A DNA stretch of 28,896 nucleotides from a virus, in IMG/VR virus record IMGVR_UViG_3300030294_000418, positions 1 through 28,896 of that record; one strand, given 5' to 3'. Shown here one piece after another: positions 6,329 to 20,786 of the stretch (its first letter is position 1; each line of letters opens with the position of its first letter). The notes under the pieces were generated by a model. The model was not told where the DNA came from and did not search any database. It saw nothing but the letters and a program-made list of their open reading frames with translations. Both the position numbers and the translations under genes were made by a program.

Positions 6329-6402
6329 TGGTGCCACTTGCAGAAATCGAATCTGCATAACTTGATTACAAGTCAAGCGTAATGCCTTTATACGAAAGTG
6401 GC
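6329..6402 (-). tRNA. tRNA-Thr (anticodon UGU), CCA encoded
   Basis: All arms fold without forcing. The acceptor GCCACTT pairs fully with AAGTGGC. A short D-arm (GTA/TAC) has GG in the loop. The anticodon stem is CTTGA/TCAAG with loop CTTGTAA, giving UGU at 6370-6368. The variable loop is 4 bases, the T-stem GCAGA/TCTGC and the T-loop TTCGATT. The discriminator A is followed by encoded CCA. G1-C72, C2-G71 and A73 agree with bacterial tRNA-Thr identity. It reads ACA codons. It lies in the leftward transcript between a small accessory gene (ending 6408) and the virion gene, so it must be processed from a longer RNA. Confidence 0.93.
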
Positions 6403-14695: not shown

Positions 14696-16066
14696 TTAAT
14701 CAATGCCACCACTGTACTTTTGTTGTTTACTTGCACGCTGTCTGTCTTGCTCAAATGTTGCTCGATCACCATTAACAAGTCGCCCATTCTTGAATGTAGT
14801 GACTGCCGTTCCTTGCTCACCAATACGGATACCAACAACATGCAAAACAGTCCAACCATGCATTTCATCACCAAGATCAGACTGAACTCCAACTAGAACA
14901 TCAGAGTCTTTTTCAATGCTTGATGATTCAGCAAGGTCTGCCAGTGTTGGAGCTTGGTCTTTACGCTCTGCATACCGTCTGTTTTGCTGCGCAACAAGTA
15001 AAACAGGAACATCCTGTTTTCGTGCCATCGTCTTTAGCGCCCATGTAATATCTGTAACTTCTTCGCTGCGTGATCTTCTTTGCTTATCGCTAGTCATCAA
15101 TCCAACATGATCAACCATGATCAAATCCAAATGTCCGTACTTCCTGCGAGTCTGCGCAGCTTTTAACGCTACTTGCGACGGGGTATTGCTTGTCAGGTCA
15201 TAGATAATCTTCGCATTTGACACTTTAGATACGGCCATCGTAACGCCGTCGTAGTCTTGGTAATCCATCTTCCCCAACATGATGTTCTTTTGCGCTACAC
15301 CGCCAAGGCTAGACATCATGCGAGCGGCCAACTGTACTTTACCCATTTCACGAGAAATTACTAAAACAACCGGCGATCTATCTTTTACTTTTGACATGGC
15401 TATGTTTTCTAGCATGGTCGTTGCCGCTGTTGTCTTGCCAGACTTAGGAGGTCCAAAAACTGTAATTAACTCCCCTTTACGAAAACCGCCATACATCAAG
15501 TCATCTAGCTCTGTAATACCTGTCTTCAAACCCGTAAAACCATTGTCTACCACGTCTGAAATGTACGACAAACCGACTTGCATCAATTCTTGAACAGTAA
15601 TCAATCCTTCGTCAGCACCATCGTTAGCGCAAACATCGATACAAGACAAAGCAGACGCTAAACCGTCTTCATAGCTTTCTGATTCATCAATAAGCCTGAC
15701 TCCTTCAATAAACTTTTGGCGAGCATCAATGCGTCTTCCTGCGTCTGCAATGCGGTATATGTCACGCTTTATCGTCGCGCTGATCGTAACGCAGTTATCA
15801 ACCAAGTCTGCAAGGTAAGACATAAGGCCAGATTGCAACTCAAATGGTAAATTACCTTTTTGCATTACTTCATCATGAACAGATATTAGGTCTGTAGGTT
15901 CACTGCGTGAATGCAATCCCATCCAGGCCATGTAGATTTCAGCATGCATGCGATTAGTCGTTAACCAGTGCGGTTTTATTGACTCCATCTCTTGCGTTAT
16001 TTTCACCGTGTCGCACATCAGTGCACCAAGGAAATTAGCCTCTCGTTCGTATAGTCCGTTATGCAT
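14696..16066 (-). CDS. dnaB: Replicative DNA helicase, DnaB-like
   Basis: The 456-residue product has the DnaB layout: an N-terminal helical domain (about 1-110), a linker, and a RecA-like core. Walker A is GPPKSGKT at 205-212 and Walker B is LIMVDH at 315-320. A downstream QQNRR motif follows in VLLVAQQNRR. It is a hexameric 5'-3' helicase for the fork, expected to be loaded by the upstream replication protein. Its start overlaps that gene by 8 bases. Confidence 0.93.
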   Translation of the reverse strand: MHNGLYEREANFLGALMCDTVKITQEMESIKPHWLTTNRMHAEIYMAWMGLHSRSEPTDLISVHDEVMQKGNLPFELQSGLMSYLADLVDNCVTISATIKRDIYRIADAGRRIDARQKFIEGVRLIDESESYEDGLASALSCIDVCANDGADEGLITVQELMQVGLSYISDVVDNGFTGLKTGITELDDLMYGGFRKGELITVFGPPKSGKTTAATTMLENIAMSKVKDRSPVVLVISREMGKVQLAARMMSSLGGVAQKNIMLGKMDYQDYDGVTMAVSKVSNAKIIYDLTSNTPSQVALKAAQTRRKYGHLDLIMVDHVGLMTSDKQRRSRSEEVTDITWALKTMARKQDVPVLLVAQQNRRYAERKDQAPTLADLAESSSIEKDSDVLVGVQSDLGDEMHGWTVLHVVGIRIGEQGTAVTTFKNGRLVNGDRATFEQDRQRASKQQKYSGGID

Positions 16067-16811
16067 TGCTAGATCCTGTGTTGTAGCGTTCGAAAGCCTG
16101 CTTACCTGCTGTTGTTAGAAAGTATCCACCTTCACGGTTAATTGCCCATAGCTTAAGATAGTCTTTACGAACATAATTTCTAAACGTCTGTCGCCAGTCT
16201 ATTTGCTTCTTCTTCTTCTCTAGCATGTCATCACGAAATACTTTCCATGCAATCACAACATATTCTTTAGGGATTCCTTCATTGAAAATCTTGTCGTCAG
16301 ATGCAATCAGTCCATTACCTGCTTCACGTTCTGTATTGATCCAGTCTTCTAGTAAAGTCTTTTCTGAGCGGGTAGAGGCAGAGCGTTTACGCGATGGTGT
16401 TTGTTCTTTCTTTTCTTCTTTATCTAAGTCTTCTTCTTCCTCTTGGGCCGTTACTGAAACGTTTCCGTTACGTTTCATGCGTTCACGATAGGCTTTAACC
16501 CTTGCTGTGCTTGAGTCTGACATCATTTGCCTACTGTTCCAGGAAATAGGCTGTAGCGTATCAAAGTCAATTAATCCAACTTCTGACAAGCGCCTTACAA
16601 CTTCGTCTAGTTCACGCGTTGCAAGCCCCATCTTTACAGACAGTTTACGGCGCAAAAGTGGATCGTTTGAGTCTAGCAACCCAGATCCTTTGCAGCACAA
16701 TAACGCGATAAAGTGCCATCTATCCTCAAAGGCTAACAGGCGTAATTTTTCATCATCAACTGTTTCTGTATACAGCCTAAACCAAGGTAATTTGTTATCC
16801 TTTTCACTCAT
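16059..16811 (-). CDS. Phage replication protein, DnaT/O-like helicase loader
   Basis: The 250-residue product has an N-terminal winged-helix region (LAFEDRWHFIALLCCKGSGL, LLRRKLSVKMGLATRELDEV), as in phage replication initiators. A charged linker of Glu/Lys runs about residues 125-145. The C-terminal domain contains QIDWRQTFRNYVRKDYLKLW, like the DNA-binding end of DnaT-type loaders. Position directly upstream of dnaB supports a loader or initiator role. The ATG at 16811 has AGGA 6 bases upstream; an ATG two codons earlier is too close to it. Confidence 0.75.
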   Translation of the reverse strand: MSEKDNKLPWFRLYTETVDDEKLRLLAFEDRWHFIALLCCKGSGLLDSNDPLLRRKLSVKMGLATRELDEVVRRLSEVGLIDFDTLQPISWNSRQMMSDSSTARVKAYRERMKRNGNVSVTAQEEEEDLDKEEKKEQTPSRKRSASTRSEKTLLEDWINTEREAGNGLIASDDKIFNEGIPKEYVVIAWKVFRDDMLEKKKKQIDWRQTFRNYVRKDYLKLWAINREGGYFLTTAGKQAFERYNTGSSNA

Positions 16812-16830
16812 ATGCATTCCTTATAGACGT

Positions 16831-16979
16831 AAAAAAGCACACTTTATTAGACCGTGGGGATTCATGCTTGCTATGACAAATAGCAAAAGTAACAAGCATG
16901 AACGGCCTAATAAAATGTGCTCATGCTATTTAGTCATGCGTTCCATTCATCCGGTCCCCACCAGATATACGAATGTCAC
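16831..16979 (-). ncRNA. Candidate structured RNA ending in an intrinsic terminator
   Basis: On the minus strand, 16921-16893 pairs with 16870-16836 over 29 positions. Two of these are G-U pairs that would be A-C mismatches in a plus-strand RNA, so the minus RNA is the folded molecule. The only interruption is a 6-base bulge UCCCCA, in a stem enclosing a 22-base loop, and six U residues follow. The bulge is complementary (7 bp) to GTGGGGA at 16955-16961. The loop is complementary (13 bp with one bulged base) to 16924-16937, so a pseudoknot is possible. A promoter lies at 16986-17014. No ORF of note fits. The end points are inferred. Confidence 0.6.
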
Positions 16980-16985
16980 ACAAAA

Positions 16986-17014
16986 ATCTTATATCATGTC
17001 TGCATGGTTATCAA
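16986..17014 (-). promoter_or_regulatory. Predicted promoter for the structured RNA / replication operon
   Basis: Minus strand: -35 TTGATA (17014-17009), 17-base spacer, -10 TAAGAT (16991-16986). The expected start is near 16979. It overlaps the end of the small HTH gene and lacks the GAAAC element of the other promoters. Confidence 0.5.
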
Positions 17015-17184
17015 GCTACTTTTGCGCGTGACTTCTTGAACGCTTCCAGGCTATCACCGTCTGCCAGCCACATCTTTTTCCCAATGTGACGTCCTGTAAT
17101 TTTACCGCGTGCAAGCATGCGTCGAATGTACTGATCTGACACACCTACATACATAGCTGCTTCTGCTACCGTTAGTTCATTCAT
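17011..17184 (-). CDS. Excisionase-like HTH protein, 57 residues
   Basis: The product is a single helix-turn-helix of the MerR/excisionase (HTH_17) type: MNELTVAEAAMYVGVSDQY, then IRRMLARGKITGRHIGKKMW, then a basic tail. Such proteins are DNA-binding regulators or recombination directionality factors. Without an integrase in view, a regulatory role at the adjacent control region is more likely. GAGG lies 8 bases before the ATG. It is the first gene of the leftward arm, next to the divergent promoters. Confidence 0.85.
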   Translation of the reverse strand: MNELTVAEAAMYVGVSDQYIRRMLARGKITGRHIGKKMWLADGDSLEAFKKSRAKVA

Positions 17185-17254: not shown

Positions 17255-17283
17255 TTGCAACATCGAAACATCGTTGCTATGAT
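17255..17283 (+). promoter_or_regulatory. Rightward promoter with GAAAC spacer element (copy D)
   Basis: Plus strand: -35 TTGCAA, 17-base spacer CATCGAAACATCGTTGC, -10 TATGAT. It has the GTTGC(N)6GAAAC dyad shared with four other promoters. It starts the rightward early operon; AGGAG and the first ATG follow at 17309. Confidence 0.8.
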
Positions 17284-20105: not shown

Positions 20106-20135
20106 TAATCATCAATTACGAACCAGGAGATAGTG

Positions 20136-20786
20136 ATGTTTTCTGTAACATTAAAAGAATTACGCGAAAATCATGCTTGCTTTGAAGGATACAACAAAGT
20201 TGTACGGATGCTCCAAGGTAAGTCGTTTACAGATAAAGATGAAGAACGTGAGTCATACATTCGATTTTCGAACAAAGAACTAATTAGTTTGGTTGATATT
20301 TGTGAAAACAATGGTATTGATGATGCAATTTGGTCGTTATGTTGCATTAAGAATAATGATAGAGATATTCGATTGTTTGCTATTTGGTGCGCTCGTCAAG
20401 TTGAATATTTAAATCCAGATCCACGCGTTAGTGTATGTAATGATGTATCGGAAAGATTTGCTAACGGAATGGCAACGGTAGAAGAATTATCTGCTGCTCG
20501 TACTGCTGCTGCTGCTCGTACTGATGCTGCTGCTTATGCTGCTGCTGATGCTGCTGCTGCTTATGCTGCTTATGCTGCTGATGCTGCTGATGCTGCTGCT
20601 TATGCTTATGCTTATGCTGCTGCTGATGCTGCTGCTTATGCTGCTGCTGCTTATGCTTATGCTGCTGCTGATGCTGATGCTGCTGATGCTGCTGCTTATG
20701 CTGCTCGTACTGCTGATGCTGCTGCACAAAAAGAAATGTTTATAAAAATGTGCAACGGTACTGCACCATGGCAGGAGGTTAAATAA
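20136..20786 (+). CDS. Ala-rich low-complexity repeat protein, 216 residues
   Basis: Starts at the ATG with AGGAG 7 bases upstream. Residues 1-119 are a normal domain: DDAIWSLCCIKNNDRDIRLF, then FAIWCARQVEYLNPDPRVSV. Residues 120-197 are almost only Ala with Tyr, Asp and a few Arg-Thr (AAADAAAYAAYAADA), a long helix. A normal segment closes the protein (MFIKMCNGTAPWQEV). Comparable Ala-rich repeats occur in other phage proteins of unknown function. In DNA the repeat is a GCT/TAT/GAT microsatellite. Confidence 0.75.
   Translation: MFSVTLKELRENHACFEGYNKVVRMLQGKSFTDKDEERESYIRFSNKELISLVDICENNGIDDAIWSLCCIKNNDRDIRLFAIWCARQVEYLNPDPRVSVCNDVSERFANGMATVEELSAARTAAAARTDAAAYAAADAAAAYAAYAADAADAAAYAYAYAAADAAAYAAAAYAYAAADADAADAAAYAARTADAAAQKEMFIKMCNGTAPWQEVK
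20493..20726 (+). repeat. GCT-rich trinucleotide microsatellite inside a gene
   Basis: About 78 codons consist of GCT broken by TAT, GAT and CGT (with single ACT and GCA), with near-perfect use of NNT codons. All frames are open because of this periodicity, so long poly-Ser, poly-Gln and poly-Leu frames on both strands are artefacts. Such tracts change length by slippage in steps of 3. Confidence 0.9.

Follow-up and report, generated by a model that had tools for sequence, protein, structure and literature searches.

A region on the minus strand of a viral contig from IMG/VR probably encodes a terminator-type, C4-like antisense RNA that would serve as a switch for the O/DnaB replication operon immediately downstream. 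Because its layout resembles that of the C4 RNA of phage P1, and because matched mutations are found in the copies carried by other phages, the region is most likely an RNA switch that halts transcription before replication. The stretch of DNA analysed, referred to here as the window, is the contig at its full length of 28,896 bases; it is a linear fragment and an incomplete genome. The early region of interest is arranged on the minus strand in the order HTH_17 gene, RNA region, O-like initiator and DnaB-like helicase, with the following coding and promoter features.

17011-17184, minus strand: upstream, co-directional gene for an HTH_17 / excisionase-like regulator (Pfam HTH_17, E 9.3e-9)
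16986-17014, minus strand: candidate sigma-70 promoter, TTGATA (17014-17009), 17 nt, TAAGAT (16991-16986), scoring 9/12 in a consensus scan
16059-16811, minus strand: O-like replication initiator, the presumed regulated gene (phrog_3926, E 3.3e-8)
14696-16066, minus strand: DnaB-like helicase, the next gene of the operon (phrog_19, E 9.8e-63)

The O-like gene starts with an ATG at 16811, with AAGGA at 16822-16818 and a second in-frame ATG at 16817. The candidate promoter and the HTH stop codon overlap; transcription from this promoter would be expected to begin near 16979, and a transcript of the HTH gene would also enter the RNA region and its terminator. The promoter had been named in a preliminary description of this DNA; it is present, but sigma-70 matches of such quality are no commoner in the window than in shuffled sequence, and taken on its own this weak consensus match would be weak support for a local start.

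Elsewhere in the window, an Erf-type annealing protein gene runs rightward, as does an SSB-like gene recognized by its translation. A tRNA-Thr (TGT) gene at 6329-6402 on the minus strand separates the packaging genes from the late-early region, and positions 20133-20786 on the plus strand encode a protein of unknown function with a long Ala/Asp/Tyr repeat tract (AADAAAYAAYA) that matches phrog_18326. The nearest phages are remote. The terminase matches Shewanella phage QDWS at 58%, the portal match stands at about 48%, and O matches Acinetobacter phage Silvergun at 63% over the N-terminal half of O. QDWS, the nearest named terminase relative, has an annotated retron-type reverse transcriptase (L097:3156-4187).

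The RNA region itself comprises the elements below, in the order in which they would be transcribed.

16949-16966, minus strand: small hairpin AUCUGGU-GGGG-ACCGGAU, showing part of a1 in its loop (fold, P ~0.9)
16955-16961, minus strand: a1, GUGGGGA, complement of a' (sequence; joint null test)
16924-16937, minus strand: b1, AUGACUAAAUAGCA, complement of b' (sequence; joint null test)
16902-16921, minus strand: outer helix S1, 5' strand (fold)
16890-16901, minus strand: inner helix S2, 5' strand (fold)
16873-16885, minus strand: b', UGCUAUUUGUCAU, in the apical loop (sequence)
16862-16873, minus strand: inner helix S2, 3' strand (fold)
16854-16860, minus strand: a', UCCCCAC, bulged out on the 3' side where S2 meets S1; its last two bases pair in S1 as well
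16836-16855, minus strand: outer helix S1, 3' strand (fold)
16831-16836, minus strand: U6 tract of the intrinsic terminator (sequence; long-hairpin and T-run scan)

Folded as minus-strand RNA, positions 16829-16980 reach -61.7 kcal/mol, where shuffled sequences average -34.5 kcal/mol (z -7.5, 0/200 shuffles as low), whereas the plus strand of the same region reaches only -43.3 kcal/mol (z -4.4). The outer helix S1 pairs 16921-16902 with 16836-16855 (20 bp) and the inner helix S2 pairs 16901-16890 with 16862-16873 (12 bp); a 6-nt bulge (16856-16861) separates them on the 3' side of the hairpin. The preliminary description had reported a 29-bp minus-strand stem interrupted by a six-base bulge, ended by six Us and containing two pairs that are G-U in the minus-strand RNA. 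All of this is borne out, with the G-U pairs at 16915/16842 and 16906/16851 and the Us at 16836-16831, and the figure of 29 is correct because the top three of the 12 S2 pairs overlap the loop as it was then drawn. The terminator hairpin ends ~20 nt ahead of the O start codon, and the expected RNA, from putative start to U tract, measures ~149 nt (16979-16831). The RNA known as OOP in phage lambda is transcribed opposite to O and is antisense to cII; an RNA of that type does not fit here, as the transcript with the U tract and the stronger fold would run in the same direction as O.

The loop region also contains the palindrome TGCTAT-N5-ATAGCA (16869-16885), which raises the question of whether the element acts as DNA, either as a replication origin hairpin or as a repressor operator. 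The half-sites are perfect and the element adjoins the O gene, but the motif is not above chance in the window and the stem forms better as minus-strand RNA than as plus, followed by a U tract; we consider a DNA-level role very unlikely. As a separate observation, a similar sequence, TGCTATGATGATAGGA, occurs in the divergent promoter region near 17273, and an operator function of these sites is possible.

Two segments upstream of the hairpin are complementary to its unpaired parts, as had been noted from the sequence: a1 forms a 7-bp duplex with the bulge segment a' (GUGGGGA/UCCCCAC) and b1 a 13-bp duplex with the loop segment b', with one bulged base and an energy of -12.8 kcal/mol. Judged singly by duplex energy, these complementarities are only mildly unusual, being matched by 81/2000 and 57/2000 shuffles. 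Jointly, and in the right order, both were found in 0/200,000 random phage 59-mers of similar GC, so the earlier assertion that they are unlikely to be chance holds for the pair, but less so for either one. Such results bear on the alternative that this is an ordinary if unusually long intrinsic terminator of the HTH unit whose complementarities arose by chance or as remnants of an inverted duplication. The modest single-test values agree with this, as does the resemblance of b1 and b', which look like inverted copies of each other. It is nevertheless an improbable account, given the joint test, the recurrence of the same layout in covarying relatives (described below) and the consideration that, with a simple terminator separating an early gene from the replication genes, replication would be shut off unless something relieved it.

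The segment b1 sits 2 nt from the foot of the 32-bp stem. From this geometry, pairing of the loop with b1 and the full stem should be mutually exclusive within one molecule. The pseudoknots proposed in the preliminary description are partly borne out: both long-range complementarities are present, but they would not form a static pseudoknot. They are better read as alternative or intermolecular pairings, that is, as antisense target pairs that rival the terminator or act between molecules. The same geometry bears on the suggestion of a statically pseudoknotted RNA or of a put-like RNA that modifies RNA polymerase. The position in an early operon and the high degree of structure are shared with such RNAs, but no Rfam family matches the window RNA and the full stem would exclude the loop pairing. 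The HK022 put RNA consists of paired stem-loops at the starts of early transcripts, acting on RNA polymerase, a layout that we take to differ from the one found here. The put-like antiterminator reading finds no support, and this pair of explanations is the least probable that we considered.

Scanning 2.86 Mb of phage DNA on both strands for long hairpins that lead into a T run placed the window among the top two by number of pairs, and a similar object was noticed in Pantoea phage PdC23. Immediately ahead of an anti-repressor gene (phrog_63), the stretch 37110-37284 of PdC23 (L098), with the RNA at 37120-37272, reads, in order, GUGGAAC, GAUCAGCGGCG, outer helix, a loop with CGCCGCUGAUC, the bulge GUUCCAC, outer helix and U7. 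The nearest relative of this anti-repressor (Ant) in IMG/VR, on contig L130, has the same RNA upstream of it (L130:2186-2340), with a1/a' altered to GUGAGAA/UUCUCAC. In Erwinia phage PEp14 the RNA (L165:2892-3037) heads an operon in which an O-like initiator follows four genes on. A shorter form lacking the U run lies upstream of Ant in Pseudomonas phage 15b (L164:2547-2690), with a1 UCGACCC paired to a' GGGUCGA and b1 CACAACA to b' UGUUGUG. No Rfam family matches the PdC23, L130, PEp14 or 15b RNAs.

The layout of the window RNA is common to P1 C4 and to these four other phage RNAs. In PdC23, L130 and PEp14, as in the window, the elements run a1, b1, S1, S2, b', S2', a', S1' and U run directly upstream of a gene, and the terminator ends ~20 nt before the start codon; the window has no sequence in common with the three. 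The window and PEp14 RNAs both precede O-like genes (in PEp14 from the operon head), whereas those of PdC23 and L130 precede the anti-repressor gene. A small hairpin with a1 in its loop recurs in the window, P1 c4-a1b1, PdC23, L130 and PEp14. Spacing is similar throughout: a1 and b1 are separated by 30 nt in the window, 27 in PEp14, 26 in L130 and 22 in PdC23, b' and a' by 25, 22, 25 and 26 nt, respectively, and b1 and b' by 46 nt in the window, 54 in PEp14 and 56 in L130. PdC23 and L130 also carry a promoter-like site with 17-nt spacing, TTGCAA-17-GATAAT/GATACT, at the corresponding place.

How specific this layout is was gauged by a scan of 1.73 Mb that required ordered a1/b1, a T-rich tail or U run, and an outer helix no shorter than 12 bp. 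Matches were confined to the window, PdC23 and L130, the last found twice, since L157 is the same contig. In eight shuffled copies there were five weaker matches, in which no outer helix exceeded 14 bp, against 18-20 bp in the real ones. Stripped of the long helix and U run, the descriptor was unspecific (76 real versus 54 shuffled matches at a score of at least 14), and it overlooked the 15b RNA, which was spotted by eye.

Alignment of PdC23, L130 and PEp14, a small sample of three sequences in which named pairs were counted, left 98.9% of cells paired, and 11 of the 31 pairs carried changes in both partners, of which three belong to a1:a', two to b1:b' and six to S1. None of 500 shuffles scored as high, and slid controls gave 0-2 pairs. 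All three helices covary in these phages, including both long-range pairings. A covariance comparison had been proposed as the check on the stem and the long-range helices; the counterpart helices of PdC23, L130 and PEp14 do show compensatory changes, but the window RNA itself has no alignable homolog.

The search for such a homolog was broad. DNA relatives of the region were found neither in phages or plasmids nor by an IMG/VR pattern search, and 96 loci of O relatives examined with nhmmer and blastn contained no homolog of the RNA. Protein routes via O, DnaB and HTH alone reached no close relatives, and the Silvergun and QDWS alignments led to no phage with the RNA. Order-level genomes gave a single 29-bp match in a sequence lacking the layout, which was taken as chance. 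A covariance model built from the window RNA as a single sequence (R1) matched the window alone, and one built from the three relatives (R2) gave only weak matches in 764 genomes, none of which was confirmed by the layout scan where checked. A pattern search with the PdC23 b1/b' pair hit 25 contigs; only L157, which is the L130 contig, was real, the others examined being apparent coincidences in coding sequence. With no homolog, the pairings of the window itself are without covariation; they rest on layout and the joint test.

One group of O relatives (L034-L079) carries a hairpin that is conserved ahead of O; it was rejected as a counterpart, lacking both the a'/b' layout and a U run. This is another structure in its own right: in the environmental phages L034-L050, L056, L066, L073, L074 and L079 a bulged hairpin, GAGCGGGGAGUGC..GCACUC-GA-CCCGCUC, is conserved ~60-170 nt upstream of the O-like gene, and sequence changes in L056 preserve its pairing. 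These phages also seem to have a short leader frame overlapping the start of O. At the corresponding place L053 and L064 have an unrelated hairpin, GGCCAGCGAAA..UUUCGCUGGCC, which suggests that position rather than sequence is kept.

Folding of growing transcripts, computed as the equilibrium at each length and not as a kinetic simulation, shows the a and b pairings peaking and then being replaced by S1 in five of six RNAs (window, L130, PEp14, 15b and P1 c4). In the window the transient pairing reaches 0.33 for a and 0.38 for b (0.54 for b with a finer step), and the outer helix ends at 0.98. In PdC23 the antiterminator form persists. Transient pairing followed by S1 would be the behavior expected of an attenuator, as modelled here.

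We propose that transcription, starting at the local promoter or entering from the HTH gene, would expose the targets a1 and b1 first. Nascent b', then a', would pair in cis with b1 and a1, opposing the long hairpin and allowing read-through into O and DnaB, whereas completion of the S1/S2 hairpin trapping the U run would terminate transcription just before O. The terminator of the window (-61.7 kcal/mol) is far stabler than the alternative (-35.5 kcal/mol), which counts against this scheme, and cis antitermination may therefore be weak. In the terminated RNA the loop would display b' and the bulge a', both hard to reach for the molecule's own b1 and a1. Since loop and bulge are free in the finished RNA, it could bind a1 and b1 of later transcripts in trans, remove the antiterminator pairing and enforce termination, a mode of action proposed for P4 CI RNA (PMC4825925) and in line with the trans effect of C4. 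The predicted outcome is repression of phage replication that limits itself and resembles immunity.

Alternatively, the operon might be controlled within a single transcript by this terminator and its competing pairing, for example in response to how fast transcription proceeds, to a protein or to where the ribosome stands, with no RNA acting in trans. The terminator and competing pairings all lie within one leader, and the two states of PdC23 are of similar energy, as a cis switch predicts. Against this, a cis switch has no need to divide a' and b' between a bulge and a loop in the way of P1 C4, whose trans action is proven, and a dedicated promoter is apparently present. A purely cis-acting attenuator is, in our judgment, unlikely. 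The antisense switch also accords with two of the possibilities first raised for this region, that it gives a phage small RNA and that it attenuates the replication operon, both of which gain from the P1 C4 layout, the covarying relatives and the terminator just before O. The initial doubt about a retron or diversity-generating retroelement (DGR) was reasonable within the fragment, no reverse transcriptase being among the genes checked near the RNA.

C4 and P4 CI are classic but isolated cases of RNA-based phage immunity. The window RNA points to a terminator-type variant with the layout of C4 and none of its sequence, which lies outside Rfam, covaries across three other phages and can precede replication genes. 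It would be one of a set of phage RNAs linked by layout, three of them also by covariation. More tentatively, this could be a wide and largely unseen class of immunity RNAs having layout alone in common, with a/b sequences that vary freely and set immunity groups, and plugged in before anti-repressors or replication operons. If so, lysogeny or superinfection immunity may in some phages depend on RNA, with no protein repressor involved at that step. Such switches are suggested to be commoner than known and findable by layout, not by sequence. They would offer a testable explanation for how a phage operon is held off without an evident adjacent protein repressor, and their a/b pairs would define an immunity specificity that is predictable and swappable.

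Among the closest known systems is C4 itself, which acts in trans on ant expression (PMC8198154). The P1 record is annotated in the order a1, b1, c4, a2, b2, icd, ant, and in the Rfam models for C4 and c4-a1b1, b' (CACUAAC) sits in the hairpin loop and a' (CUGUCAA) is unpaired 3' of the hairpin, inside the long outer helix. With P1/P7 C4 (RF01695; targets a1/b1, RF03163) the window shares the order a1, b1 and then a hairpin closed by a long outer helix; with P1 C4 it also shares the placement of b' in the apical loop and of an unpaired a' 3' of it, a promoter just upstream (in the window, the candidate) and a position upstream of, and co-directional with, a lytic-control gene. The window RNA differs in lacking the UUCG-type side hairpin between outer helix and b' hairpin, which is present in the P1 alignment and absent from the fold, so that S1 and S2 are stacked with the bulge alone between them; in ending with an intrinsic terminator; and in preceding O/DnaB, whereas C4 controls the icd/ant anti-repressor genes. 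A search of the window found no a..b pair near O that would correspond to the downstream a2/b2 targets of P1, and the Rfam search of the RNA gave no C4 or c4-a1b1 match at gathering or at E up to 5, under a C4 model that scored the P1 positive control at 68.8 bits. As a2/b2, side hairpin and Rfam match are all missing, the window RNA should not be filed as C4. Given that b' and a' are placed in the P1 models as in the window, it is better seen as the C4 plan minus the side hairpin, plus a terminator.

The proposed switch would work like the antisense attenuators of plasmid pT181, in which an RNA tips the leader between antiterminator and terminator ahead of the replication gene. The pT181 antisense RNA comes from the opposite strand, whereas the window RNA is co-directional and brings its own targets.

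The Gifsy-1 RNA IsrK offers a likeness in its two forms: a single promoter gives rise to a short RNA that ends at a terminator and to a longer mRNA made by read-through, on which the short RNA acts in trans (PMC4825925). IsrK differs in that it activates translation and has its pairing partner downstream, in orf45. The CI RNA of satellite phage P4 (seqA, seqB, seqC) causes premature termination ahead of replication genes via leader-target pairing, as envisaged for the window RNA; compared by description, one P4 RNA pairs with sequences both up- and downstream of itself (PMC4825925). By analogy, the window RNA would work like C4 and P4 CI.
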